A DNA stretch of 64,000 nt from Lachnospiraceae bacterium AC2031 (lineage in GTDB: Bacteria > Bacillota > Clostridia > Lachnospirales > Lachnospiraceae): positions 682,001 through 746,000 of the forward strand of contig JIAB01000001.1 in the NCBI GenBank assembly GCA_000687975.1, written 5' to 3'. Shown here one piece after another: positions 1-19,547 of this stretch. The position numbers and the translations under genes were made by a program. Each line of letters begins with the position of its first letter. Positions within the stretch are counted from its first letter, which is position 1. The notes under the pieces were generated by a model that saw only the letters and a program-made list of their open reading frames with translations, was not told the origin of the DNA and searched no databases.

Positions 1-2070
1 TTTCTTTAACTCTAGTGCTTCAAAGATGTCATTAAATGTAATGTTAGAAATCTCAGCGACCTTGGTTAGTATATCATATTCCTTCGACTTTATATAGATG
101 ACCCGTCGGAAGATGTTATTAATTCGGTAAATATATGCTTCAGTTGGCCCAACCACGTCTAGGCCACCGGTTGACATAATTTCTGCATTAGTTGACATAA
201 CATTTGAGTCGCGATACTTCTTTATCGCATCAGTTACCTTCTGTGACATATCTATACATAAGCCTTCATCTGCTGAACTCACACATATACCAAGCAAATG
301 GTACATCGGCGGATAATGCAGAATCTCACGATATGATACTTCATAGTTATAGAAGGTCTCATAGTCCTGAGCCGCAGCTGTAGTGATTGCATAATGCTCT
401 GGCTGATAGGTCTGTATAACCACATGTCCTGGCAGCTCATCTCGTCCAGCTCTTCCAGCCGACTGAGTCAGAAGGTCAAATGTCCTCTCTGCAGATTCGA
501 AGTCCGTATCGAAGAGACTAAGGTCCGCAAGAATATTTCCTACAACAGTTACCTTAGGAAAATCATGTCCTTTGACTATCATTTGAGTTCCAATTAGACA
601 GTCAGCCTTACCCTCACGGAACTTCTTTATTATTGCGCCGTGGCTTCCCTTCTTTTGAGTAGTGTCACGGTCCATTCGAAGAGTCTTTATCTTTGGGAAG
701 AGATCGCGTATAGTCTCTTCCACCGTTTCTGTACCTATGCCTAGTCCACCGATCAGCTTGGATTTACATTTGGGACATATATTTGGAACAGGTTCTGTAT
801 GTCCACAATAGTGACACATCAGAATATCAGCGCCACCTGGAACTATAGTCTTATGCTGCGATAAAGATACATCGCAGTTAGGACACTTCACTACTTCACC
901 ACAGTCTCTGCAGGAGATAAATGTCTTGTACCCGCGTCTGTTAATGAAGATCATGGCCTGCTCGCCGCGACTAAATGCAGTAGCCAGTCTGTTATAAAGC
1001 GTCTGTGAGATGATGCTACGATTTCCAGCACGAAGCTCCTCGCGCATATCTACCACTTCTACTTCAGGCAGTACTGAACCCTTTACTCGGTTTAGCAGGC
1101 TGTAAAGCTTATACTCACCATGCTTCGCCTTATAGTAGCTCTCAATACTTGGAGTAGCTGTACCAAGGATTACTCTGGCACCTTCAAGCTCCGCCCTCTT
1201 TATTGCCACCTCACGGGCATGATACTTCGGAGTCTTCTCACTCTTATAAGATGTATCATGTTCCTCATCGATAATAATAAGCCCAAGATTCTGAAACGGT
1301 GCAAAAAGCGCCGATCTTGGACCGATCATTATATGAGTCTCACCATTTAAGGCCTTCATAAACTCACGATACTTCTCGCCTTTACTAAGCTGAGAATTCA
1401 GTATCGATATATTATCTTGAAAATAACTGCTGAATCTGGCAACTGTCTGATAGGTAAGGGCAATCTCAGGAACAAGAACGATAACATCCTGTCCACGGGA
1501 GAGAATCTCCTCCGCCATCTTTATGTAAACCTCTGTCTTACCACTTCCAGTCACCCCATGCAGTAAATGTGCAACGGGGTCCGTCCCCACTGCACCAAGG
1601 TCTGTCCCCTCCTGCACCATTTCCTGGCAGAAGTCATCGACTATGGCCTGCTGCTGTGGTTCCAGTTCATCGATAGGCTGAAATTCAGGGATATTATCCC
1701 TAACATCTATCTCTGTCTTTCTTTCACGTACCTTTTCTTTTACAGGCATTACGGTCATCAGCGCACTGATCATGGTACAGCCGTAACGCTCCTTCATCCA
1801 GGCAGCCAGTCTAATCAGCTTACTCTCAATAGAGATGGCTGAGGTCGACACCTCCTGAATGCTCTTAATCTTGTTTATATCGTAGTTCGGCTCATCTGCG
1901 AGTCCGATCACATATCCAGTTCTGATGCGGTTGCCCTGGCCAAATGGAACTTTAACCACCGCTCCTACTGCAACCACTTCAAGGAGTTCATCCGGAATTC
2001 TATATCTAAAAGGTCTATCAACATTACTCTGTGAAATATCGATTATTATATCCGCATATTTCTGTGACAT
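1..2070 (-). CDS. priA: Primosomal protein N' (replication restart helicase PriA), C-terminus beyond window
   Basis: Superfamily 2 3'-5' DNA helicase that reloads the replisome at stalled forks. Visible are the Walker A block GVTGSGKTEVY (about 1525-1558), the DEEHD Walker B box (about 1265-1285), and zinc-binding cysteine pairs of the CxxC type between about 750 and 910. The gene runs off the left edge after 690 codons, so only the last part is missing. The ATG at 2070 has GGAGG six bases upstream and overlaps the end of murE by 47 bases, which suggests translational coupling. An unusual tandem EGTDLGA/VGTDPVA peptide lies between the Q-motif region and Walker A. It is encoded by a GGGGACGG palindrome repeat (1570-1611), see the separate entry. 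Confidence 0.95.
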   Translation of the reverse strand, partial: MSQKYADIIIDISQSNVDRPFRYRIPDELLEVVAVGAVVKVPFGQGNRIRTGYVIGLADEPNYDINKIKSIQEVSTSAISIESKLIRLAAWMKERYGCTMISALMTVMPVKEKVRERKTEIDVRDNIPEFQPIDELEPQQQAIVDDFCQEMVQEGTDLGAVGTDPVAHLLHGVTGSGKTEVYIKMAEEILSRGQDVIVLVPEIALTYQTVARFSSYFQDNISILNSQLSKGEKYREFMKALNGETHIMIGPRSALFAPFQNLGLIIIDEEHDTSYKSEKTPKYHAREVAIKRAELEGARVILGTATPSIESYYKAKHGEYKLYSLLNRVKGSVLPEVEVVDMREELRAGNRSIISQTLYNRLATAFSRGEQAMIFINRRGYKTFISCRDCGEVVKCPNCDVSLSQHKTIVPGGADILMCHYCGHTEPVPNICPKCKSKLIGGLGIGTETVEETIRDLFPKIKTLRMDRDTTQKKGSHGAIIKKFREGKADCLIGTQMIVKGHDFPKVTVVGNILADLSLFDTDFESAERTFDLLTQSAGRAGRDELPGHVVIQTYQPEHYAITTAAAQDYETFYNYEVSYREILHYPPMYHLLGICVSSADEGLCIDMSQKVTDAIKKYRDSNVMSTNAEIMSTGGLDVVGPTEAYIYRINNIFRRVIYIKSKEYDILTKVAEISNITFNDIFEALELKK
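1569..1617. repeat. Tandem REP-like GGGGACGG palindromes inside priA
   Basis: Two adjacent 21-base units (minus strand 1611-1591 and 1590-1570) match at 16 of 21 bases and are in frame. They encode EGTDLGA followed by VGTDPVA. The second unit lies in a 27-base imperfect palindrome (1569-1595, arms GTGCA/TGCAC around GGGGACGGACCCC). This palindrome differs from the intergenic hairpin at 57652-57678 at only two positions. Confidence 0.75.
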
Positions 2071-3577
2071 CCTCTTCCTCCAATATCTCCTTTATCAGGT
2101 CACGCTCATCCATATGGTGCTTTACACCACGAATCTCCTGATAGTCCTCATGGCCCTTGCCAGCAAGGATAATAACATCGCCTTCCTTTGCATTCATTAT
2201 TGCAAATCGGATAGCTTCTTTTCTATCAATTATATCCATATATTCTCCGCCTGCCTTCTCAACTGCAGACTTAATATCATCAAGTATATCCTGTGGTTCC
2301 TCATCTCTTGGATTATCACTGGTTATTATTGTGAAATCTGCATACTTGGCAGATACCTCACCCATCTCATAACGACGTGACTTGGCTCTGTTTCCACCAC
2401 ATCCAAAAAGAGTAACAAGACGCTTTGGCTCATACTCACGGATTGCCTTAAGAAGAGATTCCAGAGACATGCCATTATGCGCATAATCTATCATCAAAGT
2501 AAATGCGTCTGAAATAGGTATCATTTCAACACGGCCACGAACCTTGATAAGCTCAAGTATTCTCTTAATCTCATCAAAGCCTACGCCCATACAGTCAGCA
2601 ACTATGGTAGCTGCCATAGAGTTATAAATACTGAAGTCACCAGGAAGCGCAACTCTGACATGACCTTCAAGTGTTCCTTCCAGATCATACTCGATGCCCA
2701 GGATTCCACCATCCATATATAACTTATGTCCGCGTGCAATATAGTCAGCATATTCACTCTTTCCATAAGTGATAGGTGATGCTGTACTGCCCTCCATCAT
2801 GTATTCAGCTTCTGGGTCATCAATATTGTAGATACCCCTCTTACAGAGTGAGAAAAGCTTCTTCTTACACTCCTTGTAATTTTCATAGCTGTCATGTTCA
2901 TTTGGACCTATATGATCAGGGGACATATTAGTAAAGATACCGTAGTCGAACTCTATGCCCGCTACTCTATCCAACATAAGTCCCTGTGAAGATACCTCCA
3001 TAACTACAGCTTCACAGTCATTATCAGACATATCACGAAGCTTCTTCTGAATCGTAATGGATTCAGGAGTAGTATTTATCGAAGGAGTTTTTGTCTTTCC
3101 GTCATCTATCTCAATAGTACCAATAAGACCCGTCTTAATACCTGCAAGTTCAAGCATCTCCTTAACCATATAGGTTGTTGTAGTCTTACCCTTAGTACCT
3201 GTAATTCCTATAATTGTCATTTCATCCGATGGTGTATCATAGTAGTTAGAACTCATAACACCCATGGCATATCTGATATTTTCAACCTCGATGATTGCAA
3301 GAGTGCTCTCCTCATCAAGATCACCGTTCACCAATATATCGTTCTCGAGCATATTCTCGAGAGCCTTCTCACCCTTTTCAGTAACTATAGCAGCTGCACC
3401 AGATCTTATAACATCTGGAATAAAGACAGCTCCATCAACCTTTGCTCCAGGAACTGCAAAGTAGAGACCTCCCTCTACAACCTTTCTGGAATCATTTGTA
3501 ATATCTTTTATATCAGTGTCAAGATCTCCGCAGATTACTTCGACTTCCAGATCACCAATTATATCCTTTAATAGCAT
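2024..3577 (-). CDS. murE: UDP-N-acetylmuramoyl-L-alanyl-D-glutamate--2,6-diaminopimelate ligase
   Basis: Cytoplasmic Mur ligase that adds the third amino acid to the peptidoglycan stem peptide, using ATP. The 517-residue length is typical. The P-loop GTKGKTTT is near residues 125-133. The substrate-selecting motif DNPR is near 418-421; in this family DNPR goes with meso-diaminopimelate, and lysine-adding enzymes have a different tetrapeptide. The window organism therefore probably has mDAP peptidoglycan. The gene sits downstream of rpoZ and overlaps the start of priA. Confidence 0.96.
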   Translation of the reverse strand: MLLKDIIGDLEVEVICGDLDTDIKDITNDSRKVVEGGLYFAVPGAKVDGAVFIPDVIRSGAAAIVTEKGEKALENMLENDILVNGDLDEESTLAIIEVENIRYAMGVMSSNYYDTPSDEMTIIGITGTKGKTTTTYMVKEMLELAGIKTGLIGTIEIDDGKTKTPSINTTPESITIQKKLRDMSDNDCEAVVMEVSSQGLMLDRVAGIEFDYGIFTNMSPDHIGPNEHDSYENYKECKKKLFSLCKRGIYNIDDPEAEYMMEGSTASPITYGKSEYADYIARGHKLYMDGGILGIEYDLEGTLEGHVRVALPGDFSIYNSMAATIVADCMGVGFDEIKRILELIKVRGRVEMIPISDAFTLMIDYAHNGMSLESLLKAIREYEPKRLVTLFGCGGNRAKSRRYEMGEVSAKYADFTIITSDNPRDEEPQDILDDIKSAVEKAGGEYMDIIDRKEAIRFAIMNAKEGDVIILAGKGHEDYQEIRGVKHHMDERDLIKEILEEEDVTEICGYNNRYFTE

Positions 3578-3645
3578 ACCATCCTCCCCAAAATAAATAA
3601 GCTATGTTTAGTTTCAGAATATCAAAAATCCTATAAATCAAAATA

Positions 3646-3666
3646 TGGGGACGAAAAACGTCCCCA
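3646..3666. repeat. TGGGGACG hairpin between rpoZ and murE
   Basis: Perfect 8-base inverted repeat TGGGGACG/CGTCCCCA around a five-base loop. The minus-strand copy is followed by a T-rich stretch, so it could act as a weak intra-operon terminator or an RNA processing site. The GGGGACG core resembles the palindrome family at 1569 and 57652. Kinship with that family is an inference from the core only. Confidence 0.5.
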
Positions 3667-3684
3667 AAATAATCTAAGCAACTA

Positions 3685-3921
3685 TTACTCGTCGTCACCC
3701 ATAATCTTGATCTTGCCTTCGTAAAGCTCCTCAACTGCAACTGAAAGAGGTTTCTTTCCTTCAGTATCTCTTACAAGAGGCTCATCTCCTGCGATAAGCT
3801 GTCTTGCTCTCTTTGCAGTAGCAAGAACAATTGAGTAACGGCTCTGAACTACTGGCTCCTCGCCTGGCTCAACGCCTTCATTAGCAACGTCCATTAAGTC
3901 ACGATATGATGGATGTATCAT
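3685..3921 (-). CDS. rpoZ: DNA-directed RNA polymerase subunit omega
   Basis: 78-residue omega subunit, which helps assemble RNA polymerase by clamping beta prime. It has the family core SRYSIVLATAKRARQL and an acidic C-terminus. AGGAGG precedes the ATG. It sits downstream of gmk, the usual Firmicutes order, and has its own sigma-A-like promoter in the 93-base gap upstream. Confidence 0.93.
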   Translation of the reverse strand: MIHPSYRDLMDVANEGVEPGEEPVVQSRYSIVLATAKRARQLIAGDEPLVRDTEGKKPLSVAVEELYEGKIKIMGDDE

Positions 3922-3981
3922 AATTCATTCCTCCTATAATAAGTGGCAGGGCGTACCCATTCACATTTTCGTCCACCTTAT

Positions 3982-4011
3982 ATATTAGTCATATTTATAA
4001 GGAAATGTCAA
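3982..4011 (-). promoter_or_regulatory. Sigma-A promoter for rpoZ
   Basis: On the minus strand, TTGACA (4011-4006) is followed after 18 bases by TAATAT (3987-3982). It lies just past the gmk stop codon and could drive rpoZ-murE-priA independently of yicC-gmk. Confidence 0.6.
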
Positions 4012-4014
4012 CCA

Positions 4015-4635
4015 TTACTTATTGATTTCATCAAGCTGTCTCTTAATCCCAATAAGAAACTCGGTACGATTCTCCTTCTTACAGGTCTGGCTTACTACGA
4101 TGGAATTAACTGTATCAACACATTCCTCAAGGTCATCATTTATAACGATGAACTCATAGGACTCCATAGATTCAGCTTCCTCAGCAGCGCGTGCGATACG
4201 TTTATTGATAACTTCCTGAGTTTCTGTACCACGATTTGTAAGTCGGGCGCGTAAAGTCTCTATATCCTTTGTACTGATAAAGATAAGGATTGCATCAGGG
4301 TACTGAGACTTAATATTCATCGCTCCCTGAACCTCGATCTCGAGGATAACATTTTTACCTGCTGCTATCTCGTCCTCAACAAACTTTCTTGGTGTGCCAT
4401 AATAGTTGTCTACATACTGAGCCCACTCAATAAGTCCGTTGTAATCAATAAGTGACATGAACTCATCAACTGTTTTGAAATAGTACTCTCTACCATCCTC
4501 TTCACCCTCACGAGGTGCACGAGTTGTAGCTGAGATTGAAAGACTGTAATCATACTTCTCACGAAGTCTCTTTATAACTGTGCCCTTTCCAGCTCCAGAA
4601 AAGCCAGAAACGACGATTAATTTTCCCTTTTTCAT
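4015..4635 (-). CDS. gmk: Guanylate kinase
   Basis: Phosphorylates GMP to GDP with ATP, in purine nucleotide salvage and GTP supply. The 206-residue protein has the P-loop GFSGAGKGT at residues 10-18 and the GMP-binding stretch with TTRAPREGEEDGREY, all typical of the family. It starts 15 bases after yicC with a GGGAGAG ribosome binding site. The remA (DUF370) gene that often lies between yicC and gmk in Firmicutes is not present here. Confidence 0.96.
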   Translation of the reverse strand: MKKGKLIVVSGFSGAGKGTVIKRLREKYDYSLSISATTRAPREGEEDGREYYFKTVDEFMSLIDYNGLIEWAQYVDNYYGTPRKFVEDEIAAGKNVILEIEVQGAMNIKSQYPDAILIFISTKDIETLRARLTNRGTETQEVINKRIARAAEEAESMESYEFIVINDDLEECVDTVNSIVVSQTCKKENRTEFLIGIKRQLDEINK

Positions 4636-4649
4636 ACTCTCTCCCTCTT

Positions 4650-5567
4650 TTACTCGAGATTCTGTACCTGCTCACGAACCTTCTCGATACAGGTCTTCAT
4701 ATTTATTCCAATATCTGTAACTGATAATGTATCCGACTTAGAAAGAGTTGTGTTAGCCTCTCGGTTCATCTCCTGAATTATGAAATCAAGACGACGTCCG
4801 ATAGAATTACTCTCACTCTTTGCTGAATCAGTATCATCTGAACCAACTGATTCTGAAAGCATATCACGAACAGCTTTGATATGACTATGAAGTCTTACCA
4901 ATTCTTCATCAACCGCAACTCTATCTGCATAGATTGCAACTTCCTGAACAATACGGCTTTCATCAATATTTGTTGCCTCAAGCAGGTTACTTACCTTCTC
5001 AGTAAGTCTTGCCTGGTATTCTTCAATAACCTTAGGTGCAAGCTCATCAACCTGATTTGTATAGCCTTCCAGCTCATTCATCTTTGCAATAAGATCTGCT
5101 GCAAGATTTGCACCTTCCTTAGCACGTGATGCTTTGAACTGCTTTCCAGCCTCATCGAGAACCTTCTCAATAATCTGATACTCTTCATCCTCTACAAAGT
5201 AGTTTTCTTCAATAGAGAATACATCTGGATATCTTGCTATGACAGTTGGCTTATAATCCTCTGTCAGTCCATAGTCAGCTTCCATCTGCTTAAAATGAGC
5301 CATATACTGATCAAGTACATCCTTGTTATACTTAACTACAGCACCTGTATCCTTAAGGCTGTTATATGTAATAAATACATCTACCTTACCACGCTCTACA
5401 TAAAGCTTAAGTCTCTTTCTGATTTCAGGCTCAAATCTACTTATGCTGCGTGGCAGTTTTACGCTGATATCACAGTATCTGTGATTAACAGACTTCATTT
5501 CTATTACTACTCTTCTTGCTTCGTCAGAATACTCACTTCTGCCAAAGCCAGTCATACTATAAACCAT
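4650..5567 (-). CDS. yicC: YicC/YloC family endoribonuclease
   Basis: 305-residue member of the YicC family, whose E. coli representative is an endoribonuclease. The N-terminal signature SMTGFGRSE is present, as is the C-terminal block GRRLDFIIQEMNREANT that defines the DUF1732 half. It is the first gene of the yicC-gmk-rpoZ-murE-priA run and has a good promoter 39 bases upstream. The biological target in this organism cannot be read from sequence. Confidence 0.92.
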   Translation of the reverse strand: MVYSMTGFGRSEYSDEARRVVIEMKSVNHRYCDISVKLPRSISRFEPEIRKRLKLYVERGKVDVFITYNSLKDTGAVVKYNKDVLDQYMAHFKQMEADYGLTEDYKPTVIARYPDVFSIEENYFVEDEEYQIIEKVLDEAGKQFKASRAKEGANLAADLIAKMNELEGYTNQVDELAPKVIEEYQARLTEKVSNLLEATNIDESRIVQEVAIYADRVAVDEELVRLHSHIKAVRDMLSESVGSDDTDSAKSESNSIGRRLDFIIQEMNREANTTLSKSDTLSVTDIGINMKTCIEKVREQVQNLE

Positions 5568-5605
5568 ATTTTCATACTTCCAATCGTTAGAATAATTACT
5601 TATCC

Positions 5606-5634
5606 ATTATATTAAATGGTAGCAGTTTTCTCAA
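5606..5634 (-). promoter_or_regulatory. Sigma-A promoter for yicC operon
   Basis: Minus strand TTGAGA (5634-5629), 17-base spacer, TATAAT (5611-5606). It lies between the end of the nuclease/helicase gene and yicC, so the core operon does not depend on readthrough from the accessory gene. Confidence 0.75.
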
Positions 5635-5648
5635 CCACTTTTAAGGTG

Positions 5649-8600
5649 CTAATCAGAAACCTTCTTACGCATTATCTCTATGCTTATTCCATTTGATTCA
5701 TCCACCTTTGTATCATGATCAATAGCCGTATCAACCTCAATCTTACGCATAAATTTATCGAAGTCACACATAAAACTGATTCCCTGCTCGATGGATTCAT
5801 CATCTACATCAAGAAGCTCTATAGGTTTGTCCAGAAGTACATCAGTCAGGATCACGATTGTCTTCTTTTTGCCTCTCGTGATAGATACATTTAGCCTGTT
5901 TCTGCTATAGATAAACTCAATCTCCGAAAGTGCCTTCTCGATATTTGAGATACCATAGCTTACTACAACCGCTTCACGTTCCTGCCCCTGAAGCTTATCA
6001 ACCGTGCCGATGTATAAGCTATCTCGGTCCATCCCCAGTTCTTCTGAAATCTGGTCCTTCAATCTATTGATATGCTCATGATGAGGCGAAATGATAGCGA
6101 ACGCGCCTTTATGATTCGAATCCCCCCAGAACTCTCCCTCAGTAAGATATGGATTAAGTTCCTTATCCACCATATGTTCCTTCAGCAGTCTCGTAATTTC
6201 GGTAGCAAGTCTTATTTCCAAGGACTGCTTTTCAGCAGCTTTTCCTCCAGAAAGTTTTATAAGGATAAGTGGATACTCCGGATCCAGCACCTTTCTCATA
6301 AGCTCATCATCCAGAAGATTCTCTTTTGTCTTTATCTCATCTTCATTTATTAGAGTAAGCTTCTGGTTCTTTATCTTATCTCCTATAATCTCATCAGTAT
6401 AAGCATGATATCCATTTCTATCCTTAGAAGCAGTACCTGCAAGGATATCCACATCATAGATTTTTTCTCCTGGATATCTGTCCAGAATTTCATTCATACG
6501 GAAGTTTTCTTCCAGCTGGCACAGATAATCCATATCACATCTTTCAGCAATATTGTAAAAGGTTCTGAAGATAGAACCATAAATATCCGGCGTATCTTCA
6601 GGTGCTTCATACTTTCCCTTAATGATCGGAGAAAGCTGATTCTCATCACCAACTATCATGAATCTCGTTGAACGGTTGGACCAGTCCATAGCGACAAGTG
6701 CATCGCTGGTCTTAACCTGGGATGCCTCATCAATTATGACAATATCAAATCCTGGATAGCTATATGGATGGAACCTGTCTCCTTCCATCCTGTCTCTTGT
6801 ATACTGGCATGCATTACTTGTTGCACCAACAACCAGTGGTCTATCTATATCATATTCATACAGGATTCCATCCGCTTTCCGTGTCTCAAAAATTTCAAGA
6901 AGCTTCGGCAGAACTGGAACACTTGGATTCATATCAAGAAAACGTCTTCCTGTTTCTTCATTTACTCCATATGGATACCACCGTTCATACACCTTTATGC
7001 CAGGGATCGGACTCTCCTTTTTATCCTGATCATATTTATCAAGTTTTACAATCTGTGGCAGATAATCCTTTTCAAAGCAATCCTCCGAGAAAACATTTGC
7101 CTGAATCTTCTCGTCCAGCTTTTCAAGAATATTATTGATTGCCGCATGAGAATTAGCGGTAACCAGAATCGACATATTGTAGTTATAGCGTTCCTTGAAA
7201 AATCCAGCCAAGGCAATCACTGCTCTTGCAATAAAGTCAGTCTTCCCACTTCCTGGTGGGCCAAGAAGAAGCGTTACATTTTTTTCAAAAAACTGTTTAA
7301 ACGCTCTTCTCTGAGAAGGCGAAAATGTCATGCCATCAACTCGGGCATACTTTTCAACACGCTCCTTATACTGTTCTAATCTTAAATCGCTGGATTTCTC
7401 CTGGTAGCCGCCATAATTATCCACCATGTGACCAGACTCATCCGGATGCTGTCCCTCTGGATACAGAATCAAAGGGTTTGAAATACCGCGAATTAACTTC
7501 TGAACTGTTTTATCTCCTACAATATCAGTGAATCGTTCCACTAAGTAAAGCTCAGTTCCAGATTTATACTCAGTTCCTCCCATCCTCTGACCCTTAATGA
7601 TCATTCTGCCGCCTTCATAACAAAACTCCATATTATCGAAGTACGCGGTATGAAAGAAATTCTGGTGATAACCACTTCCCTCTTCAGGGATATCAGGAAT
7701 ATAGAGGCTCTTCTTTTCGTTGATCCTTGCCAGCTCATCCGCCGCAATCTCATTTGTTTCCGCAACAATAGCTGCGAACCATGGATCCTGGAAGAAGGAA
7801 TCTTTATTGATCACTTCATATTCGCAGTAGCATCCATCCAGTTTTTTGGGTCTGCCACCTGGAAAACAAACCATAGATTCAGACTGGTAGGTTTCTGATA
7901 TAACCCGGACCTTAAGGATCTTTCCATCCGAAGCCGCCTCACTGAGATCCCCCATTCGAACTCTCTTAGTATCATGAAAGGACAGAAGCTGCTCGTACTT
8001 CTGCTCAATATAAAGCTTGGCAATACGGTCATCCATACTCTCATTTATAGTTACCAAGGCAAATGGAGCCGCTGCCCTTTTGATTCCAGAATGACGGGAA
8101 TCCTTTCCCTGAATCTCACCGATTATCCTTCTTTCGATATAGAGTCTCTTCAGAATATAGTTCGACAGTTTTTCTATACGTGTACTCTTTATCTCATCCT
8201 TTTTCTCAGGATCATCGTTCTTCTTACCATGCCAGATATCATTTATCGGTTCACTTTTAATTGCGTTCGAAAGTGGACTGGAATACTTCTTTCCCTTTTC
8301 ATTGTCATACTGCTGTGAAAAGGCTTTACTGATATCTTCAAAATTGTTGGATATAAATCCAGGTATTACATATAAACGTCCAATAATACTACTAAGCACT
8401 ACAAGTGGAAACTCATCACCAATATCTTCACCTTGAATAGCCGAGTCGGTGATCATTCGTTCCCCCTGAAGCCAGAAAATAATCGCAAGCAGTTTATTAC
8501 GATACTCTGTATCGATCGTGTCATCTAACAGTTCTGCAAAGAGTCCTTCCTCCAGGTTGTAGGACTCATAATTATCCATTACATATCCCTGTACAGATAA

Positions 8601-9968
8601 GAACTCATTCATGCTTTGACAGAGGCAGTTATACTCATGAATTCGTTTAAATATGTCATATAAGTATTCAACAAACTCTTTAGTATTTGAATGAATCTCC
8701 TCTGGATTCTTAGCTATAAAGATTTTTTCCTCTTCGGCAAAGCCAGCTTCATTCTCTGAAAGATTAATATGATTCTTTCCCTTAACTATATTTATACTGA
8801 CTCCGTAAAGATAAACCTCACCCAGACCAACATCCTTCTGGGATGTGATAATGATAGAAATATCCTGATACTTTGGCATCTCCATATTGAAAACTGGCTT
8901 TGGATAAGAAGTATTTCTGTTACCTATGGTCCTATCTCGAAGTGCACTTATCACATCTGACATATATCCAAGGCGATTTTTCAAGAAGCCTGACTCTTCC
9001 TTCAATCTGTCACTATTGTCTAGATCTGATATATATTCTTCAAACTCATCCAGTGTACGAGGAATCTCAGGATTCTTCCTGAACATCTCCTGTGTACGTG
9101 GTGTCATATATGGCATCAGTAGAACTGGTTCATGTTCCTTCGCCCACTTAGTACAGTGCTCCAGATTACCGCACCACTCACAGTTTTGAGAAAGACAGTA
9201 TTGAAGACATTCATCAAGTTTCGCACCGATATCTGTTCCGGTTAGCTCATCTTCAATACCTCTCATTCTTTCAATGACCTCTGGAAGTGCTGCATTAAAG
9301 TATGAATCAACAAAAGTACTTATATCACCTGTACTGAAGCTTTTAGGATCATCCGCTTTAAATGGCCAGACATAGCCTGTTGTTTCATCCACATATCCTG
9401 GAATATCATGTTCTTTAAGGATTGCTTTAAGCATGCGAATATAAACCACAATCTGAACCTTGTGATTAATCTTTGCACGTTTTGCATGTTTCATATCAAT
9501 AACGGAAAACTTTGGACAGGCTCTTTCCTCATCGTACTCAACCCTGACAAGATCAGACATAGAATCATTCCAAATAATCTGAGATCTGTCCACCTTGGAC
9601 ATATAATCATTACAGAATATATCATTAATATAAAGAACTGCCTGATAGATATACCCCGGCTTTGCTTCTCTAAGAAAACGTGTGGTTTCATCTCTTCGAT
9701 GAGCAGCCAGGGCTTCTCTATCAGCTTTACTAAGAGACATATCATCGCCAGGAACCATGGCAACATATTCGCCACGTTCTTCTAGTTTACATAACACTTC
9801 TGTTTCCCAGACTTCACCAGCCTGCTTTGCTACCATATTGAAGTCTTTATCTTCATCCCAGCCGATCATTTTTCTATCATGGTTGCTGAGACCGTCGTAG
9901 ACCATATATCTATCACAGTTATGAACGAAATAATCACCAATTCTGGATGGTGATATCTTGTATCTCAT
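5649..9968 (-). CDS. Dna2-like nuclease/helicase: Fe-S PD-(D/E)XK nuclease fused to SF1B helicase
   Basis: Very large (1439 residues) DNA-processing enzyme. The N-terminal third looks like a Cas4/AddB/Dna2-type nuclease: a Cys near residue 18 (HNCDRY), the active-site strand VIDMKHAK near 155-162, a QIVVY motif near 172, and a CxxCxxxxxC cluster near 255-270 that would complete a 4Fe-4S site. The C-terminal half is a UPF1/Dna2-type helicase: Walker A GPPGSGKT near 903, DEAS box near 1077, VGDENQL motif III, a GTVDKLQGQE motif V and a SITRGKKK motif VI near 1360. The middle third (about 370-850) has no firm assignment. The ATG at 9968, with GAGG upstream, is preferred over the GTG at 9980. The stop of the XRE gene is 12 bases upstream, so the two are probably co-transcribed. 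Closest concept: TM0106-like RecB nuclease-helicases. Likely role, inferred: repair or defence. Confidence 0.85.
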   Translation of the reverse strand: MRYKISPSRIGDYFVHNCDRYMVYDGLSNHDRKMIGWDEDKDFNMVAKQAGEVWETEVLCKLEERGEYVAMVPGDDMSLSKADREALAAHRRDETTRFLREAKPGYIYQAVLYINDIFCNDYMSKVDRSQIIWNDSMSDLVRVEYDEERACPKFSVIDMKHAKRAKINHKVQIVVYIRMLKAILKEHDIPGYVDETTGYVWPFKADDPKSFSTGDISTFVDSYFNAALPEVIERMRGIEDELTGTDIGAKLDECLQYCLSQNCEWCGNLEHCTKWAKEHEPVLLMPYMTPRTQEMFRKNPEIPRTLDEFEEYISDLDNSDRLKEESGFLKNRLGYMSDVISALRDRTIGNRNTSYPKPVFNMEMPKYQDISIIITSQKDVGLGEVYLYGVSINIVKGKNHINLSENEAGFAEEEKIFIAKNPEEIHSNTKEFVEYLYDIFKRIHEYNCLCQSMNEFLSVQGYVMDNYESYNLEEGLFAELLDDTIDTEYRNKLLAIIFWLQGERMITDSAIQGEDIGDEFPLVVLSSIIGRLYVIPGFISNNFEDISKAFSQQYDNEKGKKYSSPLSNAIKSEPINDIWHGKKNDDPEKKDEIKSTRIEKLSNYILKRLYIERRIIGEIQGKDSRHSGIKRAAAPFALVTINESMDDRIAKLYIEQKYEQLLSFHDTKRVRMGDLSEAASDGKILKVRVISETYQSESMVCFPGGRPKKLDGCYCEYEVINKDSFFQDPWFAAIVAETNEIAADELARINEKKSLYIPDIPEEGSGYHQNFFHTAYFDNMEFCYEGGRMIIKGQRMGGTEYKSGTELYLVERFTDIVGDKTVQKLIRGISNPLILYPEGQHPDESGHMVDNYGGYQEKSSDLRLEQYKERVEKYARVDGMTFSPSQRRAFKQFFEKNVTLLLGPPGSGKTDFIARAVIALAGFFKERYNYNMSILVTANSHAAINNILEKLDEKIQANVFSEDCFEKDYLPQIVKLDKYDQDKKESPIPGIKVYERWYPYGVNEETGRRFLDMNPSVPVLPKLLEIFETRKADGILYEYDIDRPLVVGATSNACQYTRDRMEGDRFHPYSYPGFDIVIIDEASQVKTSDALVAMDWSNRSTRFMIVGDENQLSPIIKGKYEAPEDTPDIYGSIFRTFYNIAERCDMDYLCQLEENFRMNEILDRYPGEKIYDVDILAGTASKDRNGYHAYTDEIIGDKIKNQKLTLINEDEIKTKENLLDDELMRKVLDPEYPLILIKLSGGKAAEKQSLEIRLATEITRLLKEHMVDKELNPYLTEGEFWGDSNHKGAFAIISPHHEHINRLKDQISEELGMDRDSLYIGTVDKLQGQEREAVVVSYGISNIEKALSEIEFIYSRNRLNVSITRGKKKTIVILTDVLLDKPIELLDVDDESIEQGISFMCDFDKFMRKIEVDTAIDHDTKVDESNGISIEIMRKKVSD

Positions 9969-9980
9969 GCTATGCCTCAC

Positions 9981-10334
9981 TTACTTCTTCTTGATACCAG
10001 CTATTTCATAATAAGCGAGTAAAAGCTTCTTTAGCTTTTCCTCATCAAGATCTTTCCCACCTTCAGCTATCTCAAACATTATCTTATCTTCGTTTCTATC
10101 TAGAACTATCGATTGTTGTTCCGACTTATTTTTTTGTCCTGTTAAATAATCTACGCTGGTTCCTAAAACCTGGGCCATCTGCGTTATCGTGGCATGAGTA
10201 GGTTTACGAGTTCCCTTCTCATACCTAACATATGAACTCTGAGGAATATTCATTCGGCGAGCTGCCTCAACCCTTGTTATACAAAGTGCTTCACGAGCTT
10301 TTTTCAAGTTTTCTGGAATTAGTATTGGTTGCAT
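9981..10334 (-). CDS. XRE-family HTH transcriptional regulator
   Basis: About 117 residues. The helix-turn-helix near residues 8-65 contains TRVEAARRMNIPQSSYVRYE and a typical XRE tail with LGTSVDYLTG. The C-terminal half is charged, with a DLDEEKLKKLLLAYYEI helix that may mediate dimer or ligand contacts. The ATG at 10334 is chosen because the HTH starts right after it; an upstream in-frame extension is Cys/Phe-rich and implausible. It is immediately upstream of the nuclease/helicase and divergent from the small toxin-like gene, so it may control one or both. Confidence 0.85.
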   Translation of the reverse strand: MQPILIPENLKKAREALCITRVEAARRMNIPQSSYVRYEKGTRKPTHATITQMAQVLGTSVDYLTGQKNKSEQQSIVLDRNEDKIMFEIAEGGKDLDEEKLKKLLLAYYEIAGIKKK

Positions 10335-10364
10335 ATTCTTTACCTCACAAAAAAACATAAAACA

Positions 10365-10404
10365 ACTGCATGTCAAACAATAATAATGTGTTTAACCATG
10401 CAGT
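10365..10404. promoter_or_regulatory. Inverted repeat in XRE/toxin divergent intergenic region
   Basis: ACTGCATG (10365-10372) is repeated inverted as CATGCAGT (10397-10404) with 24 bases between. A minus-strand TTGACA (10376-10371) overlaps the left arm and could be the -35 box for the XRE operon. This is a candidate operator for the XRE protein. The right arm also overlaps the putative 5' end of the toxin transcript. Confidence 0.4.
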
Positions 10405-10650
10405 CGGGGGACGTGCTCCTCACCTAACTCGGAAGCGGTGTTGTTCCGAAAGGAGGTGAGGCCTATGAGTAAATATGAAGTTATTACCACTGTAATATCG
10501 ATAATCAAGCTAATTATCGGACTAGTTAAACTTTATTTTGCCCATAAGAAAAGCCGTCCTGACGTTCGACAGCGGAAGAACGGCTAATCTTATTACTAAT
10601 CAACTCCGCTAACCGGGTCGGGTGATGTGCACTCACCCTCCGACTGCTTC
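10399..10650 (+). ncRNA. Structured toxin mRNA with SD-sequestering stem and 5'-3' end pairing
   Basis: CCTCACCT (10418-10425) is exactly complementary to AGGTGAGG (10454-10461), which contains the Shine-Dalgarno sequence. Inside it a second stem TCGGAA/TTCCGA (10429-10434/10444-10449) closes the hairpin. The 5' segment GCAGTCGGGGG near 10400 can pair with CCCTCCGACTGC near 10635-10646, bringing the transcript ends together. Such folding is a hallmark of type I toxin messages. Transcript ends are inferred. Confidence 0.5.
10465..10587 (+). CDS. Small hydrophobic peptide, putative holin-like type I toxin
   Basis: 40-codon reading frame with an excellent AGGAGGTGAGG ribosome binding site. The peptide starts MSKYEVITTVISIIKL, continues with a hydrophobic segment IIGLVKLYFA, and ends in a basic tail with HKKSRPDVRQRKNG. 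One transmembrane helix plus a charged tail, and an MSxYE start, resemble Hol-Tox/TxpA-like type I toxins. The ribosome binding site is locked in a stem, as expected for such genes. No antitoxin RNA can be identified from sequence alone. It lies divergent from the XRE-nuclease/helicase pair. The family assignment is from memory of the pattern and is moderately sure. Confidence 0.6.
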   Translation: MSKYEVITTVISIIKLIIGLVKLYFAHKKSRPDVRQRKNG

Positions 10651-10708
10651 GTTAAGCACATTATATAAGAATATCAAAAAAATGTCAAAAGCATTTTTTA
10701 TATTTTGT

Positions 10709-11956
10709 TTACATAGGACGTGGATTTGCGCAGGCTGTACATACATCGCCTGTATTGGTTGTTCCACAACAATCACATACCCACTGGCCACCTGCCTGCA
10801 TCTGGCCAAACTGACCCGGCATTCCCATGCCCTGCTGTGGCATACCTTGCTGTGGCATTCCGCCCATCTGACCTGGCATTCCCATGCCCTGCTGTGGCAT
10901 ACCCTGCTGTGGCATTCCACCCATCTGTCCTGGCATTCCCATGCCTTGCTGCATGCCCTGCATCTGCTGCTGTCTCTGCTGCTGCATCATCTGGCTCTGC
11001 ATGTCATTTCCAGCAAGACCATCCATAGCTGCTCCTGCAACGGCGCCGATAGCCTGTCCAGCAAGACCACCGATGCCACCAGCCATAGCATTACCCATCT
11101 GGCCCATGCCACCTTGCATTCCCATGCCGCCTTGCATTCCACCCATCTGGTTCATACCGCCCTGCATTCCCATGCCGCCTTGCATTCCACCCATCTGGTT
11201 CATGCCGCCTTGCATTCCACCCATCTGGCCCATGCCGCCCTGCATTCCCATGCCGCCTTGCATTCCGCCCATCTGGCCCATGCCGCCCTGCATTCCCATG
11301 CCGCCTTGCATTCCGCCCATCTGGCCCATGCCACCTTGCATACCCATTCCCATGCCCATACGGCCACCAGAAAGAGCCTGCTGAATCTGCATACCCATCT
11401 GTTCGAAGTTATTATATGACATATCGCCTCTCTGCTTTGGACGACTTGACATAGTTGTAAGTTCGAACTTAATCTCGTCAAAATATGGTGAATTAACATT
11501 TATAGTTGTCTCAAACTCATAAGAATACTCATATCTTCTAGGATTATAAGGAACATTCTTTCCCTCTGAATCCTTTCTGAACAGCTCCTTCTTATGTTCC
11601 TGAGCCTCAGTAAATACGCTTGAAACCTGGCTGATATCAATAATATCAGGATTTGTAGATCTCCAGTCACGTGCTGATGATACTGCAAATGTTCCTGTGT
11701 TCTGATCAACATAAACCTTTGTATCGTTTCCAAGAACCATAGTTGGATTGAACGCAGCAACTCTCTGCTTGTTCTGCTCACGATACTCAAGATGCTGCTT
11801 TATCTCATCAAGAGTTGTATGTCTTCTTCCTGATAAGAATGGAGAAAGCTTAGATGCGCAGTTCTTGCACATATTACCATCCTCCAGCTTACGGTTACCC
11901 ATAAGGCTTATCTTCTCCCCACAGATATCACAGAATTTTGCATCAAAAAGTCCCAT
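10709..11956 (-). CDS. DUF4428-type protein with Met/Gly/Gln repeats and C-terminal zinc ribbon
   Basis: 415 residues in three parts. Residues 1-40 form a small zinc-binding domain (CDICGEKISLMGNRKLEDG...CKNC) like DUF4428. Residues about 45-195 are a folded globular region. Residues about 198-390 are a low-complexity tract built on units such as GGMGQMGGMQGGMGMQ, followed by Gln/Met-rich segments. The end is a second zinc ribbon (WVCDCCGTTNTGDVCTACA). The Met-rich tract could bind metal or drive condensation, but no function is known. Expansions of the repeat create long open frames on the other strand, which are not genes. Confidence 0.8.
   Translation of the reverse strand: MGLFDAKFCDICGEKISLMGNRKLEDGNMCKNCASKLSPFLSGRRHTTLDEIKQHLEYREQNKQRVAAFNPTMVLGNDTKVYVDQNTGTFAVSSARDWRSTNPDIIDISQVSSVFTEAQEHKKELFRKDSEGKNVPYNPRRYEYSYEFETTINVNSPYFDEIKFELTTMSSRPKQRGDMSYNNFEQMGMQIQQALSGGRMGMGMGMQGGMGQMGGMQGGMGMQGGMGQMGGMQGGMGMQGGMGQMGGMQGGMNQMGGMQGGMGMQGGMNQMGGMQGGMGMQGGMGQMGNAMAGGIGGLAGQAIGAVAGAAMDGLAGNDMQSQMMQQQRQQQMQGMQQGMGMPGQMGGMPQQGMPQQGMGMPGQMGGMPQQGMPQQGMGMPGQFGQMQAGGQWVCDCCGTTNTGDVCTACANPRPM
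10790..11360 (-). repeat. Intragenic Met/Gly/Gln-coding tandem repeats
   Basis: Degenerate repeats of roughly 30-50 bases encoding variants of GGMQGGMGMQGGM, with a second array encoding GMPGQMGGMPQQGMPQQG. Copies are nearly identical at the DNA level, suggesting recent slippage or recombination. Repeat number is likely to vary between strains. Confidence 0.8.
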
Positions 11957-11994
11957 ATTAAAAACCTCCCTATGTTATAAATACTATATATTCA

Positions 11995-12013
11995 GTTCTG
12001 AAAATTTCAGAAC
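11995..12013. promoter_or_regulatory. Perfect 19-base palindrome upstream of the DUF4428 gene
   Basis: GTTCTGAAAATTTCAGAAC is fully symmetric around one central base and lies 39 bases upstream of the DUF4428 start, next to an AT-rich TATAGT/TATAAC region. Position and symmetry fit a dimeric repressor operator. A further stem ATATCATCC/GGATGATAT lies at about 12050-12072, downstream of the CoA-transferase gene. Confidence 0.4.
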
Positions 12014-12118
12014 CAGATACCGTTATCATAGCAAATATCATATACCTTGTATATCATCCCTAAGGATGATATTTTATTTTTTCCAAAGTATTCTGCTGAG
12101 TCCTTCTTCGCTATAAAT

Positions 12119-13459
12119 TTATCTCTTATTTGAACGGCGCCAGATTTTTCTACTCTCAGCCTCCTTGATCAGCTCATCACGAAAATCCGGGTGGGCTATG
12201 GAGATAAGATCCTCAGCACGCTCCCAGGTGGATTTTCCTTCCAGATTTATAACACCAAACTCAGTAGCTATAAAATAAACCTGACTACGAGGCGAGGTAA
12301 TAATGTCGCCGTTAAATTGCGGTGTAATACAAGATTTATAAGAGCCGTCTTTTTCCTTAAAACGTGAAGCCATACAGATAAATGCTTTTCCCCCGTGTGA
12401 TGCCGAAGCACCTGTAAGGAAGTCCAGCTGTCCACCTGTACCACTTATATGTCTACCCGCAAAGCTTTCCGATGCCACCTGTCCATAAAGATCCACAGCA
12501 ACGCATCCATTTATCGAAACCATGTTATCTATCTGTGCAATGACAAATGGCCTGTTAACGTATTCTATCGGATACGCAGCAACTCCCGGATTATCATCCA
12601 GCCACTCATACAGCTCAGTTGAACCGACTGCACATCCAAAGACGCCCTTTCCTCTATCTATTGTTTTACGTTTATTGGTAAGTTTACCCGAACGGTATAG
12701 TTCTAGATACGCATCCGTGCAAAGCTCGGTATGCATTCCAAGATCCTTGATATCAGACTCTGAAAGAAGCGCACCTACTGCATTAGGAATACTACCTATT
12801 CCAAGCTGAAGAGTTGCTCCATCCACGATATAAGGAATTATATGACTTGCTATCTTCCAGTCCAGTTCACGAGGCTGTACAGGTAGCAGATTTTTAAATG
12901 GTGCATGCTCGCCCTCAACGATATAGTCGATATCTGATATATGGATGCATTCATTTGAACCGCCATGAATTCTTGGCATATGTTCATTTACTTCAACAAT
13001 AACGATATCAGCCTTTTCACAGATTGGGCCTGCAACACCAGTATTAACTGAAAAATTAAAATAGCCGTGCTTATCCATAGGAGCCACACTAACCATTACC
13101 ACATTTACATCAATAAAGAATTCGTAATATGCGGCATTGTACTGGAACACCATAGGTATGTAGTAGCAAAGTCCTCGGTCAGTAAGCTTTCTCTCGTAGG
13201 AAGAACAGTGCCAGCTATGATATACAAAATGTTCCTGCGAAGGATCACATTCTGCAACCTCTATAGGTCCTGGTATCAGATTACCTCGGATCTTCACTTC
13301 CTCCAGCTCATCTCTTCTCCTAGCCAGAGCAGCATCAAGAAGAACCGGCATACCAAGCGAACTGGTGTAATCAACCCAGTCCCCGCTTTTTACTACTTTT
13401 ACTGCTTCTTCAGGAGTACGAAGTTTTTCCTTATACTCCCTGCTATAATCACGTAACAT
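12119..13459 (-). CDS. but: Acetyl-CoA hydrolase/transferase family, probable butyryl-CoA:acetate CoA-transferase
   Basis: 446-residue class I CoA-transferase with both family halves. The CoA-binding loop LGIGSIPNAVG and the block GMHTELCTDAY, whose Glu near residue 244 is the candidate covalent catalytic residue, are visible, as is the C-terminal GRHISGTGGQLDF region. The length and the HISGTGGQLDF signature resemble the butyryl-CoA:acetate transferases of butyrate-producing Lachnospiraceae, which release butyrate and form acetyl-CoA. 4-hydroxybutyrate CoA-transferase is the main alternative. It stands alone, without other butyrate pathway genes nearby. Confidence 0.75.
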   Translation of the reverse strand: MLRDYSREYKEKLRTPEEAVKVVKSGDWVDYTSSLGMPVLLDAALARRRDELEEVKIRGNLIPGPIEVAECDPSQEHFVYHSWHCSSYERKLTDRGLCYYIPMVFQYNAAYYEFFIDVNVVMVSVAPMDKHGYFNFSVNTGVAGPICEKADIVIVEVNEHMPRIHGGSNECIHISDIDYIVEGEHAPFKNLLPVQPRELDWKIASHIIPYIVDGATLQLGIGSIPNAVGALLSESDIKDLGMHTELCTDAYLELYRSGKLTNKRKTIDRGKGVFGCAVGSTELYEWLDDNPGVAAYPIEYVNRPFVIAQIDNMVSINGCVAVDLYGQVASESFAGRHISGTGGQLDFLTGASASHGGKAFICMASRFKEKDGSYKSCITPQFNGDIITSPRSQVYFIATEFGVINLEGKSTWERAEDLISIAHPDFRDELIKEAESRKIWRRSNKR

Positions 13460-13475
13460 CTAATGTCCCCCGAAA

Positions 13476-15452
13476 CTAATCTGTAACGCCGAGAATCTCT
13501 CGGATGAAATCCTCCTTCGGTATCGGCTTTGAGAAGTAGAAGCCCTGCTGATAATCAACCCCTAAATCCTCAAGCAGGTGTATCTGTGACTCTGTCTCAA
13601 CGCCTTCTACTACTATCTTCTTTTTCATCTGACGAATCATATTGATGCTATTAGTAAGAATTGTCATTCCCAGGTCACCCTTCTCAGCTGCCCAAAGAAT
13701 ACTCTTATCTATCTTAACCACATCAAAGTCCAGAGAAAAGATTGACTGAATGTTGGAATAACCTGTTCCATAATCATCCATTGCAAACTGATATCCACTG
13801 GACTTCAGTTCAGTAATAATCTCCCCAAGCTTTTTATAGTCATCAGCACCAACTGATTCTGTAATCTCAAATGTGATCATATGCTTATCAACCTTATAGC
13901 TATCAACTATCTGGTTGATGCGGTCAACAAAGCCCTTCTGCATACATTGGATCATTGATAAGTTTACATTTAATGTACGCATTCCCGCTCTTTCAGGAAT
14001 ACCACTTTCAATAAACTCACAAACCTTACCAAGAACCATGTTATCCACGTCATCGATAAGTCCCATCTGTTCAATTACTGGAATGAATTCATCTGGGAAT
14101 ATTGGACCAAGTTCCTTGTCATGAAGTCTGAGGAGAGCCTCAGCACCATAAAGCTTCTTTGTACTCAACTCATAAACAGGTTGATAATAAACTTCAAAGC
14201 CTTCTTCAGCCAGACCTCGGTGAATAGCATTTTCCACCTCAGTTCTTCTAAGCAGATATCCCAAATCATCCCCTTCCAGTACCTGCTTATCCAGCTGCTT
14301 TGGAATAGGACTATCAATAAAGAAGAATACCTCTTCGACTGTTTTAAAATCATTTGGAATGTTTGCCTTGATGATCACTGGATTCAGACTGGTCTTTGTC
14401 TTACCCATGTTCCAGTTGCCCTTAAAACGTGCAAGTAAATCTTCAGTCAATTCATCAATAGAAATCATAGGCTCATAGTTTTTAAACAATTTTCTAAACT
14501 TTCGCTGATGATCCTCCGTATCCTTATCACCAAGAAGGATAATGAACTGGCTAGGATCAATGTTATAGATATAGAATCTCTGAACCTTAGTTTTCAGATA
14601 TTCAGCAATATCATTTGTCAGATTATTAATATTAGTAAGACCTATACTTCTAAGACTTGTTCCTACGTCTGTGATCCTGAGACTCAGAATATTACAGCTA
14701 AGACCCAGCTTAATATTTGTTTCCAGATCAATCTCCAGACCATGACGATTATATATTGCCGTCTCCGCCATAATACGGTCATCTTCATTCTCCATAAGAA
14801 GCATTATGCCAAGAGCTCCCAGTGCCTCAGCAAAAAGTTCGCATCTAATATCTGGATAAACAAACTGAATCGCAAGACCTAAAACAACTACACCCATGAA
14901 ACAAAGAATAGAGAGTCGTTTTTTAATTGTCATCGCATTCCAATACTTGGATATGCACGCAATAGCAAGACACATATAAACCGCTGAAATAACATATACA
15001 ACATATTCAGCAGGGCCTCGTTGAAATTCACCATTTTTGTGATAGAACAGGACTTCTGTTACAGGATTTGAAAGGACCAGTAATTCCATAAAAACTATAG
15101 GAATACTGAAAATGACCACCTGAAAATCTCTTCTCTTTTTTATAGCATCCGTTAAACACAGCTCATAAAAGAAGAAAACTGGTGCAATAAGAACATGAAA
15201 CATGAAGTACATGATATGACATACTTCATCAATAAACATGCATGTATCTGATTTAGTGATGTATGGTTTCATAAACTCTGATACGGTCTCAGTAACAGAG
15301 TTTGCCATAATAATTCCAACCATAAGAATAAACGCCAGATTATGAGCTCTATCCGTTCTTCTCTGAATGATTGATTGCATTAAAATAGTAAATGACACAA
15401 GAAATGCCACTGCATAGAATGCGGTATGGAATTCATCAATAATCAAATGCAT
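13476..15452 (-). CDS. Membrane-bound cyclic-di-GMP phosphodiesterase (degenerate GGDEF plus EAL)
   Basis: 658 residues. The N-terminal ~215 residues hold about seven hydrophobic helices, a probable membrane sensor. The middle (about 220-390) resembles a GGDEF fold but lacks the catalytic GGDEF motif. The C-terminal EAL domain keeps the residues for hydrolysis: EALLR near 437, AMDDYGTGYSN near 560, VKIDKS, and VEGVETESQ. It should therefore break down c-di-GMP, perhaps with the degenerate domain sensing GTP. The start has weak upstream signals, but the hydrophobic N-terminus supports it. Confidence 0.9.
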   Translation of the reverse strand: MHLIIDEFHTAFYAVAFLVSFTILMQSIIQRRTDRAHNLAFILMVGIIMANSVTETVSEFMKPYITKSDTCMFIDEVCHIMYFMFHVLIAPVFFFYELCLTDAIKKRRDFQVVIFSIPIVFMELLVLSNPVTEVLFYHKNGEFQRGPAEYVVYVISAVYMCLAIACISKYWNAMTIKKRLSILCFMGVVVLGLAIQFVYPDIRCELFAEALGALGIMLLMENEDDRIMAETAIYNRHGLEIDLETNIKLGLSCNILSLRITDVGTSLRSIGLTNINNLTNDIAEYLKTKVQRFYIYNIDPSQFIILLGDKDTEDHQRKFRKLFKNYEPMISIDELTEDLLARFKGNWNMGKTKTSLNPVIIKANIPNDFKTVEEVFFFIDSPIPKQLDKQVLEGDDLGYLLRRTEVENAIHRGLAEEGFEVYYQPVYELSTKKLYGAEALLRLHDKELGPIFPDEFIPVIEQMGLIDDVDNMVLGKVCEFIESGIPERAGMRTLNVNLSMIQCMQKGFVDRINQIVDSYKVDKHMITFEITESVGADDYKKLGEIITELKSSGYQFAMDDYGTGYSNIQSIFSLDFDVVKIDKSILWAAEKGDLGMTILTNSINMIRQMKKKIVVEGVETESQIHLLEDLGVDYQQGFYFSKPIPKEDFIREILGVTD

Positions 15453-15475
15453 ACACTTCCCCTTAGTGTACTAAA

Positions 15476-15502
15476 ATAGTGTAACATTTTCCCCAACACT
15501 AT
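15476..15502. promoter_or_regulatory. Inverted repeat upstream of the EAL gene
   Basis: ATAGTGT (15476-15482) and ACACTAT (15496-15502) form a 7-base inverted repeat with a 13-base spacer. A further TAGTGTA copy sits just beside it. This is a possible operator in the 63-base gap between rqcH and the EAL phosphodiesterase gene. Confidence 0.3.
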
Positions 15503-15515
15503 CTTAGCAAATACA

Positions 15516-17357: not shown

Positions 17358-17366
17358 TATCTGTCC

Positions 17367-18803: not shown

Positions 18804-18857
18804 AGACAACCCCTCCGTATTTATAGGTCCCTCGTTAATACTCAGGATAATAACTCT

Positions 18858-19517: not shown

Positions 19518-19547
19518 ACGCGCCCCCCCTTACTTCGTAATCGTTAC

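Follow-up and report, generated by a model that had tools for sequence, protein, structure and literature searches.

A 64,000-nucleotide stretch of the Lachnospiraceae bacterium AC2031 genome (hereafter the window; the source genome is a single 3.19-Mb contig) carries, at positions 5649 to 9968 of the minus strand, a gene for a 1439-residue Dna2-like helicase-nuclease of the type called Bad. We think it probable that this window protein is a stand-alone, exchangeable, DNA-degrading anti-phage effector of the Bad kind that acts in a restriction-like manner. New here is that, at the level of sequence comparison, its nuclease and the first part of its middle region are homologous to an open reading frame (ORF) that overlaps dpdJ in certain Dpd loci, and its helicase to the N-terminus of the long DpdJ encoded there. 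Of the new leads from the analysis, this connection to Dpd is the most useful.

Three parts of the window protein

The ORF is open from position 9980 to position 5649 on the minus strand. Its start is likely the ATG at 9968, upstream of which lies an AGG-containing ribosome site, and Met occupies the same start position in all three of the relatives found at the same genomic site. The original prediction, made from the letters of the window, had placed a 1439-residue protein here, and the ORF is borne out.

The N-terminal part (residues ~1–285; 9114–9968, minus strand) is an iron-sulfur nuclease of the RecB/Cas4 type, as judged from invariant alignment columns and from a Cas4 Pfam match above cut-off in a relative from genome G920 (27.2 versus 22.7 bits). 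The nuclease-domain residues are C18, D139, D158-M-K160, Q172-I-V-V-Y176 and C263-x2-C266-x5-C272. Among these, D158, K160, Q172, Y176 and the four cysteines (C18, C263, C266 and C272) are invariant in all eight aligned proteins and again in all six rows of a second alignment set, which has five rows in common with the first and adds the G920 relative, from another family; D139 is likewise invariant among the aligned nuclease domains. The nuclease and iron-sulfur residues are unchanged across relatives that are 23 to 66% identical to the window protein, and the nuclease is recognized because these residues are kept. In the window protein itself, the Pfam scan returned helicase families only and no nuclease family, the match to the PADLOC Cas4 model is weak (E = 0.03), and a PDB sequence search with an N-terminal profile gave three chains up to E = 1, the best of which (E = 0.023) is an aspartyl-tRNA synthetase.

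The C-terminal part (residues ~871–1439; 5649–7358, minus strand) is an SF1B helicase with K909 as its Walker A lysine, and it is matched by the Pfam families AAA_11 (E = 7.6e-21) and AAA_12 (E = 1.4e-19). The best PDB relative of the window protein is DNA2 (E = 1.8e-12), through the helicase part only. Motif residues and domain matches therefore agree with the originally proposed fusion of a Cas4/AddB-type iron-sulfur nuclease to an SF1B helicase, and the DMK, QIVVY, N-terminal Cys and CxxCxxxxxC motifs cited in its support were found as stated.

Between these parts lies a middle region (residues ~286–870; 7359–9113, minus strand) that is homologous, to approximately residue 617, with the ORF adjoining dpdJ. 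An unassigned middle had been anticipated and is indeed present, at a size nearer 580 residues than the ~480 first given. A degenerate RNase H-like core is possible at residues ~370–510; sequence, model and fold searches for such a core all gave results below significance, and there is no PF13482 (RNase_H_2) match in the window protein up to E = 1. One alignment of the middle, with four rows, seemed to be out of register over its second half and was left out of folding.

A split counterpart in long-DpdJ loci

On plasmids of Skermanella, Methylobacterium and Caulobacter, an ORF of 762 to 774 residues overlaps the start of a gene of 2102 to 2173 residues, and in all three loci tested the larger gene matches the model of full-length long DpdJ (E = 0). 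This arrangement, in which a long DpdJ with an N-terminal SF1B helicase is preceded by an iron-sulfur nuclease-like ORF, is found at L103:9722-18375, L102:9722-18564 and L104:5004-13597. A DpdH gene is nearby in both Dpd loci tested, and dpdA, DpdB and queE are annotated in the Skermanella locus. The dpdJ-adjacent ORF has no PADLOC match at E ≤ 0.001 in any of the three loci and no Pfam match over cut-off in either of two tested.

The product of this ORF aligns with window-protein residues 1–605 (E = 6e-11, ~20% identity), and it matches a six-sequence profile of the window group over residues 1–617 with a profile-comparison probability (Prob) of 98.3 and E = 1.2e-14, the E-value being that for one comparison. 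The middle alone, as represented by seven window-type proteins, matches four dpdJ-adjacent ORFs with Prob 95.5 and E = 1.5e-8; in the control, the best of 100 column shuffles reached E = 0.081. For its part, the window helicase matches DpdJ residues 49–457 with E = 9e-36. Because both stretches match, the window protein corresponds to a fused counterpart of the ORF and the DpdJ N-terminus. The unlisted ORF is an apparent further nuclease of this Dpd variant and, if the link is true, PADLOC 2.0 does not list one of the nucleases of long-DpdJ Dpd loci. DpdJ has been described as a YprA-family helicase (PMC12458937), and a dpd cluster of Salmonella Montevideo, whatever its form of DpdJ, has been reported to give more than 1000-fold restriction of plasmid DNA that is unmodified (PMC5567051).

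Distribution and insertion site

Genome counts are lower bounds because several searches scored only two candidates per genome. Within the genus, seven relatives of the helicase-nuclease (its own gene included) occur in 6 of 61 genomes. Four of them form a close group at the same site, in AC2031 and in genomes G402, G423 and G439, with the latter three proteins 54 to 65% identical to the window protein; the three more distant ones lie elsewhere, in G422, in G420 and as a second copy in G423. Matches were found in two of 397 genomes of a family sample (AC2031 and G357), in AC2031 only among 392 genomes of an order sample searched with the N-terminal profile, and in four of 398 genomes of a phylum sample, where AC2031 and G920 carry full-length copies, G995 a fragmentary one and G1020 the helicase only. 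A scan of named genomes found a single relative, in the metagenome-assembled genome RUG10561 of an uncultured Lachnospiraceae bacterium. The G995 copy (L095, G995:C236) consists of fragments of a G920-type gene at a contig end (query positions 780–948, 574–654 and 300–359; 83–89% identical), a pattern that suggests decay of the gene in a relative of the same genus. In a tree of 18 helicase proteins, the four same-site proteins group together (100/100) and are nested in a group of eight Lachnospiraceae proteins (99/99).

YicC is present in all 61 genus genomes, and 30 YicC loci were inspected. The helicase-nuclease adjoins YicC in three, and 17 are plainly empty, with a CoA-transferase-like gene directly beside YicC. 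The other 10 have neither arrangement within the sequence available, showing contig ends or other neighbors. One of them is the YicC contig of G439; in that genome the helicase-nuclease is the last gene before a contig end and again follows the CoA-transferase-like gene. In G422 the site at YicC is empty and the relative is located elsewhere in the genome. The ORFs flanking the gene in the window have the same core-gene counterparts in relatives whether or not these carry the helicase-nuclease. (The names PriA, MurE, RpoZ, Gmk, YicC, GlgA, RqcH, EAL protein, CoA-transferase and zinc-ribbon protein were read from sequence with no family search, as were UvrB and several neighbors in relatives.) From this pattern of occupancy it follows that the helicase-nuclease has been gained or lost at this site. 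The inferred insertion beside core genes is thereby upheld, and the patchiness of the gene is not that of a universally conserved gene with a housekeeping pattern.

The helicase-nuclease is fast-diverging under purifying selection. Its nonsynonymous divergence (dN) is 0.28–0.40 across the six pairs among the four same-site genomes, compared with 0.007–0.185 for nine neighbors (eight core genes and the zinc-ribbon gene), and its ratio to synonymous divergence (dN/dS) is 0.10–0.16 in the four of six pairs where it is computable, with synonymous sites near saturation. Because dS is near saturation for most genes, it does not report how recent any transfer was, nor does it separate horizontal replacement from fast vertical change among the same-site species.

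Relatives in defense loci

The G357 relative is preceded by genes for Vsr (E = 7e-17), a cytosine methyltransferase (E = 1.4e-118), two UvrD-like helicases and a NACHT-type ATPase, and is followed by one for an IetA-like ATPase; three further scanned neighbors had no PADLOC match. Directly downstream of the G920 relative are an HSDR_N protein and ZacC (E = 5.1e-192), then SIR2_2 and an SMC-like ATPase, with one intervening neighbor that gave no match. The ZacC relative there (L090:4442-6766 and 7033-7998, with the HSDR_N protein) is without the first 346 model positions and matches positions 347–1016 of 1019. This combination of ZacC, HSDR_N and a Bad-type gene is possibly a variant Azaca-like locus.

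Near the relative on a Bradyrhizobium plasmid are genes for a DNA methyltransferase, an annotated anti-phage deoxyguanosine triphosphatase, XRE and DUF262. A pattern scan of viral contigs with eight sequences recovered two distant Dna2-like genes (L096 and L097), whose adjoining genes read as methyltransferases; a scan with the G920 protein found no relative, and in the last scan L096 and the contig of L097 (now L098) came up a second time, together with one further contig (L099). A single-chain relative on a Chlorohelix plasmid has no defense-like neighbor in its annotation. Among nine Bacillota loci (AC2031, G402, both copies of G423, G439, G422, G420, G357 and G920), two lie in clear defense islands and one, the first G423 copy, lies beside another helicase-nuclease pair. 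Some relatives are therefore found near defense genes, contrary to the possibility, raised with the original prediction, that they never are.

The XRE gene and a hairpin element

Upstream of the enzyme, an XRE-type repressor-like gene (117 residues; 9981–10334, minus strand; HTH_3, E = 1.3e-12) ends 12 bases before the helicase-nuclease ATG. The pairing of the two genes, as originally described, holds in AC2031 and G423, where a zinc-ribbon gene, a small hairpin element and the XRE gene lie between the CoA-transferase-like gene and the helicase-nuclease. It does not hold as a fixed partnership, since XRE is absent in G402 and G439, where the helicase-nuclease begins 2 and 29 bases, respectively, after the CoA-transferase-like gene. 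A two-gene module with XRE always beside the enzyme is ruled out by its presence in only two of the four same-site loci.

The hairpin element (10381–10650, plus strand) spans 270 bases, and a single long hairpin is the predicted fold of its RNA (−100.3 kcal/mol, z = −6.55; none of 200 shuffles was as good). Within it is the toxin-like small gene that had been pointed out earlier, a 40-codon hydrophobic ORF (10465–10587, plus strand) whose peptide has no Pfam or NCBIfam match. At the same site G423 has a 93% identical copy of the element, and 15 of the 61 genus genomes contain matches, many of which are partial. The element looks like a type I toxin-antitoxin locus and is probably a neighbor separate from the helicase-nuclease. 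One perfect sigma-70-type consensus, TTGACA-17-TATAAT, is present at 10660–10688 on the minus strand, in agreement with the proposal of a separate promoter; promoter-like sites in the region as a whole are not above chance (16 versus 18.9 expected), and this promoter could drive an antisense RNA of the hairpin element, or XRE and the helicase-nuclease. No Rfam match at gathering scores was found in window positions 1–20000, and no tRNA or tmRNA genes were found in the window.

The zinc-ribbon protein (415 residues; window 10709–11956) has a long Met/Gly/Gln-rich repeat tract, and its gene is at the same site in G423 and not in G402 or G439. Also in G423, two adjacent UvrD-type helicase genes (L019:15242-19899 and L093:2-511), one with a C-terminal PD-(D/E)XK nuclease domain, are inserted at this site between the CoA-transferase-like and zinc-ribbon genes; helicase-nuclease genes may thus have a hot spot here.

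Possible functions

Because some relatives are located within known anti-virus systems, the enzyme is probably a stand-alone defense enzyme. By analogy with the biochemistry of Bad and DNA2, it would load where a 5′ single strand is free or at a junction of single- and double-stranded DNA, its SF1B motor would move 5′ to 3′ while unwinding, and the iron-sulfur nuclease would cut the strand. Its targets in the cell might be invading DNA that is replicating or recombining, attacked at exposed 5′ ends and flaps; gating or placement of the nuclease might fall to the middle domain, and the XRE protein, where present, might keep expression down. What stands of the original proposal of a defense module is that the gene is accessory and is related to genes in defense loci; XRE as a constant partner does not.

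A broader reading, which we advance tentatively and rate somewhat short of probable, is that iron-sulfur nuclease, middle and SF1B helicase constitute one portable effector module, used alone in the window, with a methyltransferase in Bad, beside ZacC, and split within long-DpdJ Dpd. On this view the window branch would represent the module at its smallest, with no partner, and the middle would be a shared gate that chooses the DNA to be destroyed. The dpdJ-adjacent ORF would be an overlooked nuclease of the long-DpdJ Dpd system.

Several observations weigh against a defense role. To our knowledge, no member of this branch has been examined in a phage experiment. Beside the enzyme, no defense gene other than XRE was recognized in AC2031, G402 or G439 from ORFs and window matches, with no defense-family search made of the window's flanking genes; the G422 and G420 relatives have ordinary-looking neighbors, judged partly by reading, and near the second G423 copy there is only a weak ShosT-like match (E = 6.9e-5). 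When viral contigs were pattern-scanned with the six closest sequences, no relative turned up, and plasmid and phage matches of the window protein (nine and one records, respectively) cover the helicase part only, from residue 794 onward. The similarity of the Bradyrhizobium plasmid relative and the two viral ones to the window protein lies mainly in the helicase (E = 2.6e-17 to 8e-19), whereas their similarity to the G920 protein runs along most of its length, and the middle of the window group matches that of the methyltransferase-linked plasmid and viral relatives weakly (Prob 52.9, E = 1.4e-4). Moreover, the deep branches of the helicase tree are not resolved, and the base composition of the gene is not alien (GC content 0.400 versus 0.376 and 0.389 in two neighbors).

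A rival reading is an accessory DNA repair or replication enzyme that, like eukaryotic DNA2, would trim 5′ flaps and resect host breaks, and would spread only because it is occasionally useful. Among solved structures the best match is eukaryotic DNA2, core genes surround the closest loci, where no defense neighbor was recognized, and the Caulobacter relative is near dinB, ImuA and a 3′-5′ exonuclease, in what is also a dpdJ locus. Yet the gene is patchy, with empty sites in close relatives, it diverges fast, and defense neighbors recur outside this site. An AddB-like repair nuclease is, in addition, already encoded in 40 of 41 genus genomes including that of AC2031 (G000:C1:979690-983217), with none reaching the curated cut-off of the model. 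We consider the repair role unlikely. Slightly less likely still is that the enzyme is the effector of a multi-part restriction system and does little alone, its modification or recognition partner being encoded elsewhere in the genome. Relatives do adjoin methyltransferase genes (by reading in the viral contigs, annotated in Bradyrhizobium) or ZacC and HSDR_N, or are split inside Dpd, and Bad itself adjoins a type III-like methyltransferase gene in Geobacilli (PMC7430649); however, no partner was recognized beside the gene in the four same-site loci (on the upstream side only in G439; the rest of the genome was not scanned). The tight spacing of XRE and enzyme, and their like divergence between AC2031 and G423 (dN 0.29 and 0.31), would also fit a toxin-antitoxin-like pair, with loss of XRE freeing the enzyme to attack host DNA and cause abortive infection, but two of the four same-site loci have the enzyme without XRE, and we regard this as highly improbable.

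Comparison with known systems

Several large helicase or helicase-nuclease proteins invite comparison with the window protein. An identity with AddB was rejected, as no TIGR02773 was among the NCBIfam matches up to E = 1. TM0106 (TIGR03491) resembles it in joining a RecB-type nuclease and an SF1B helicase in one chain, but two of three plasmid proteins scanned, both annotated TM0106, have a clear RNase_H_2 middle (E = 8.2e-28 and 2.8e-27) that the window protein is without. Membership was rejected, there being no TIGR03491 or RNase_H_2 match up to E = 1; profile comparison of the window group with TM0106 gave Prob 0.9, or 5.0 when pooled with the Dpd ORFs. In 119 genomes, TIGR03491 had no matches above cut-off and 31 weaker ones, and two loci fetched from these matches (L091 and L092) contained no window-protein match at E ≤ 1e-3.

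Defense systems also include such proteins, namely Mokosh (MkoA/MkoC), Hhe and UvrD-Cas4 fusions. For MkoA, MkoC and Hhe, the displayed PADLOC matches all fall in the helicase, with the best MkoA stretch covering residues 886–1377 only. The nuclease of Mokosh is a PLD-type domain, and membership was rejected because no PLD family is among the Pfam matches up to E = 1. UvrD-Cas4 fusions are described as using a UvrD-type 3′-5′ helicase (PMC5704561). Eukaryotic DNA2 has an iron-sulfur nuclease and an SF1B helicase in the same order as the window protein, but, as described alongside Bad, it has no middle domain; it is found throughout eukaryotes, where it is essential (PMC7430649).

Dpd shares with the window protein a homologous nuclease-plus-middle ORF and the N-terminal SF1B helicase of DpdJ. 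In Dpd two genes encode these parts, the helicase being fused to DpdJ, whereas the window gene encodes one chain; base-modification genes lie beside dpdJ in the Skermanella locus, whereas window positions 1–18000 hold no DpdJ-length ORF and, by reading only, no modification genes.

The closest likeness is to Bad. The original prediction did not recognize the design, but the same three-part architecture was described in 2020 from Geobacillus stearothermophilus (Wilkinson et al.; PMC7430649), the only published account of it that we found in a literature search that was not exhaustive. Bad has a RecB-type iron-sulfur nuclease, a large conserved middle of unknown fold and a C-terminal SF1B helicase, the same order of parts as in the window protein, to which it is likened here by published description, length and position only. 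Its published numbering places D150 and K815 in 1245 residues, compared with D150 and K819 in 1274 for the G920 relative and D158 and K909 in 1439 for the window protein. Bad is rare and sporadic, has a middle domain without known relatives, and acts as a 5′-3′ motor with junction binding and endonuclease activity (PMC7430649). No methyltransferase gene was seen beside the window gene, whereas one of type III-like character adjoins Bad in Geobacilli, and because of it the authors propose a new class of restriction enzyme while leaving the cellular role open (PMC7430649). The present loci make that proposed restriction role testable, since they offer a version with no adjoining methyltransferase, relatives with empty sites, and a link of homology to Dpd.

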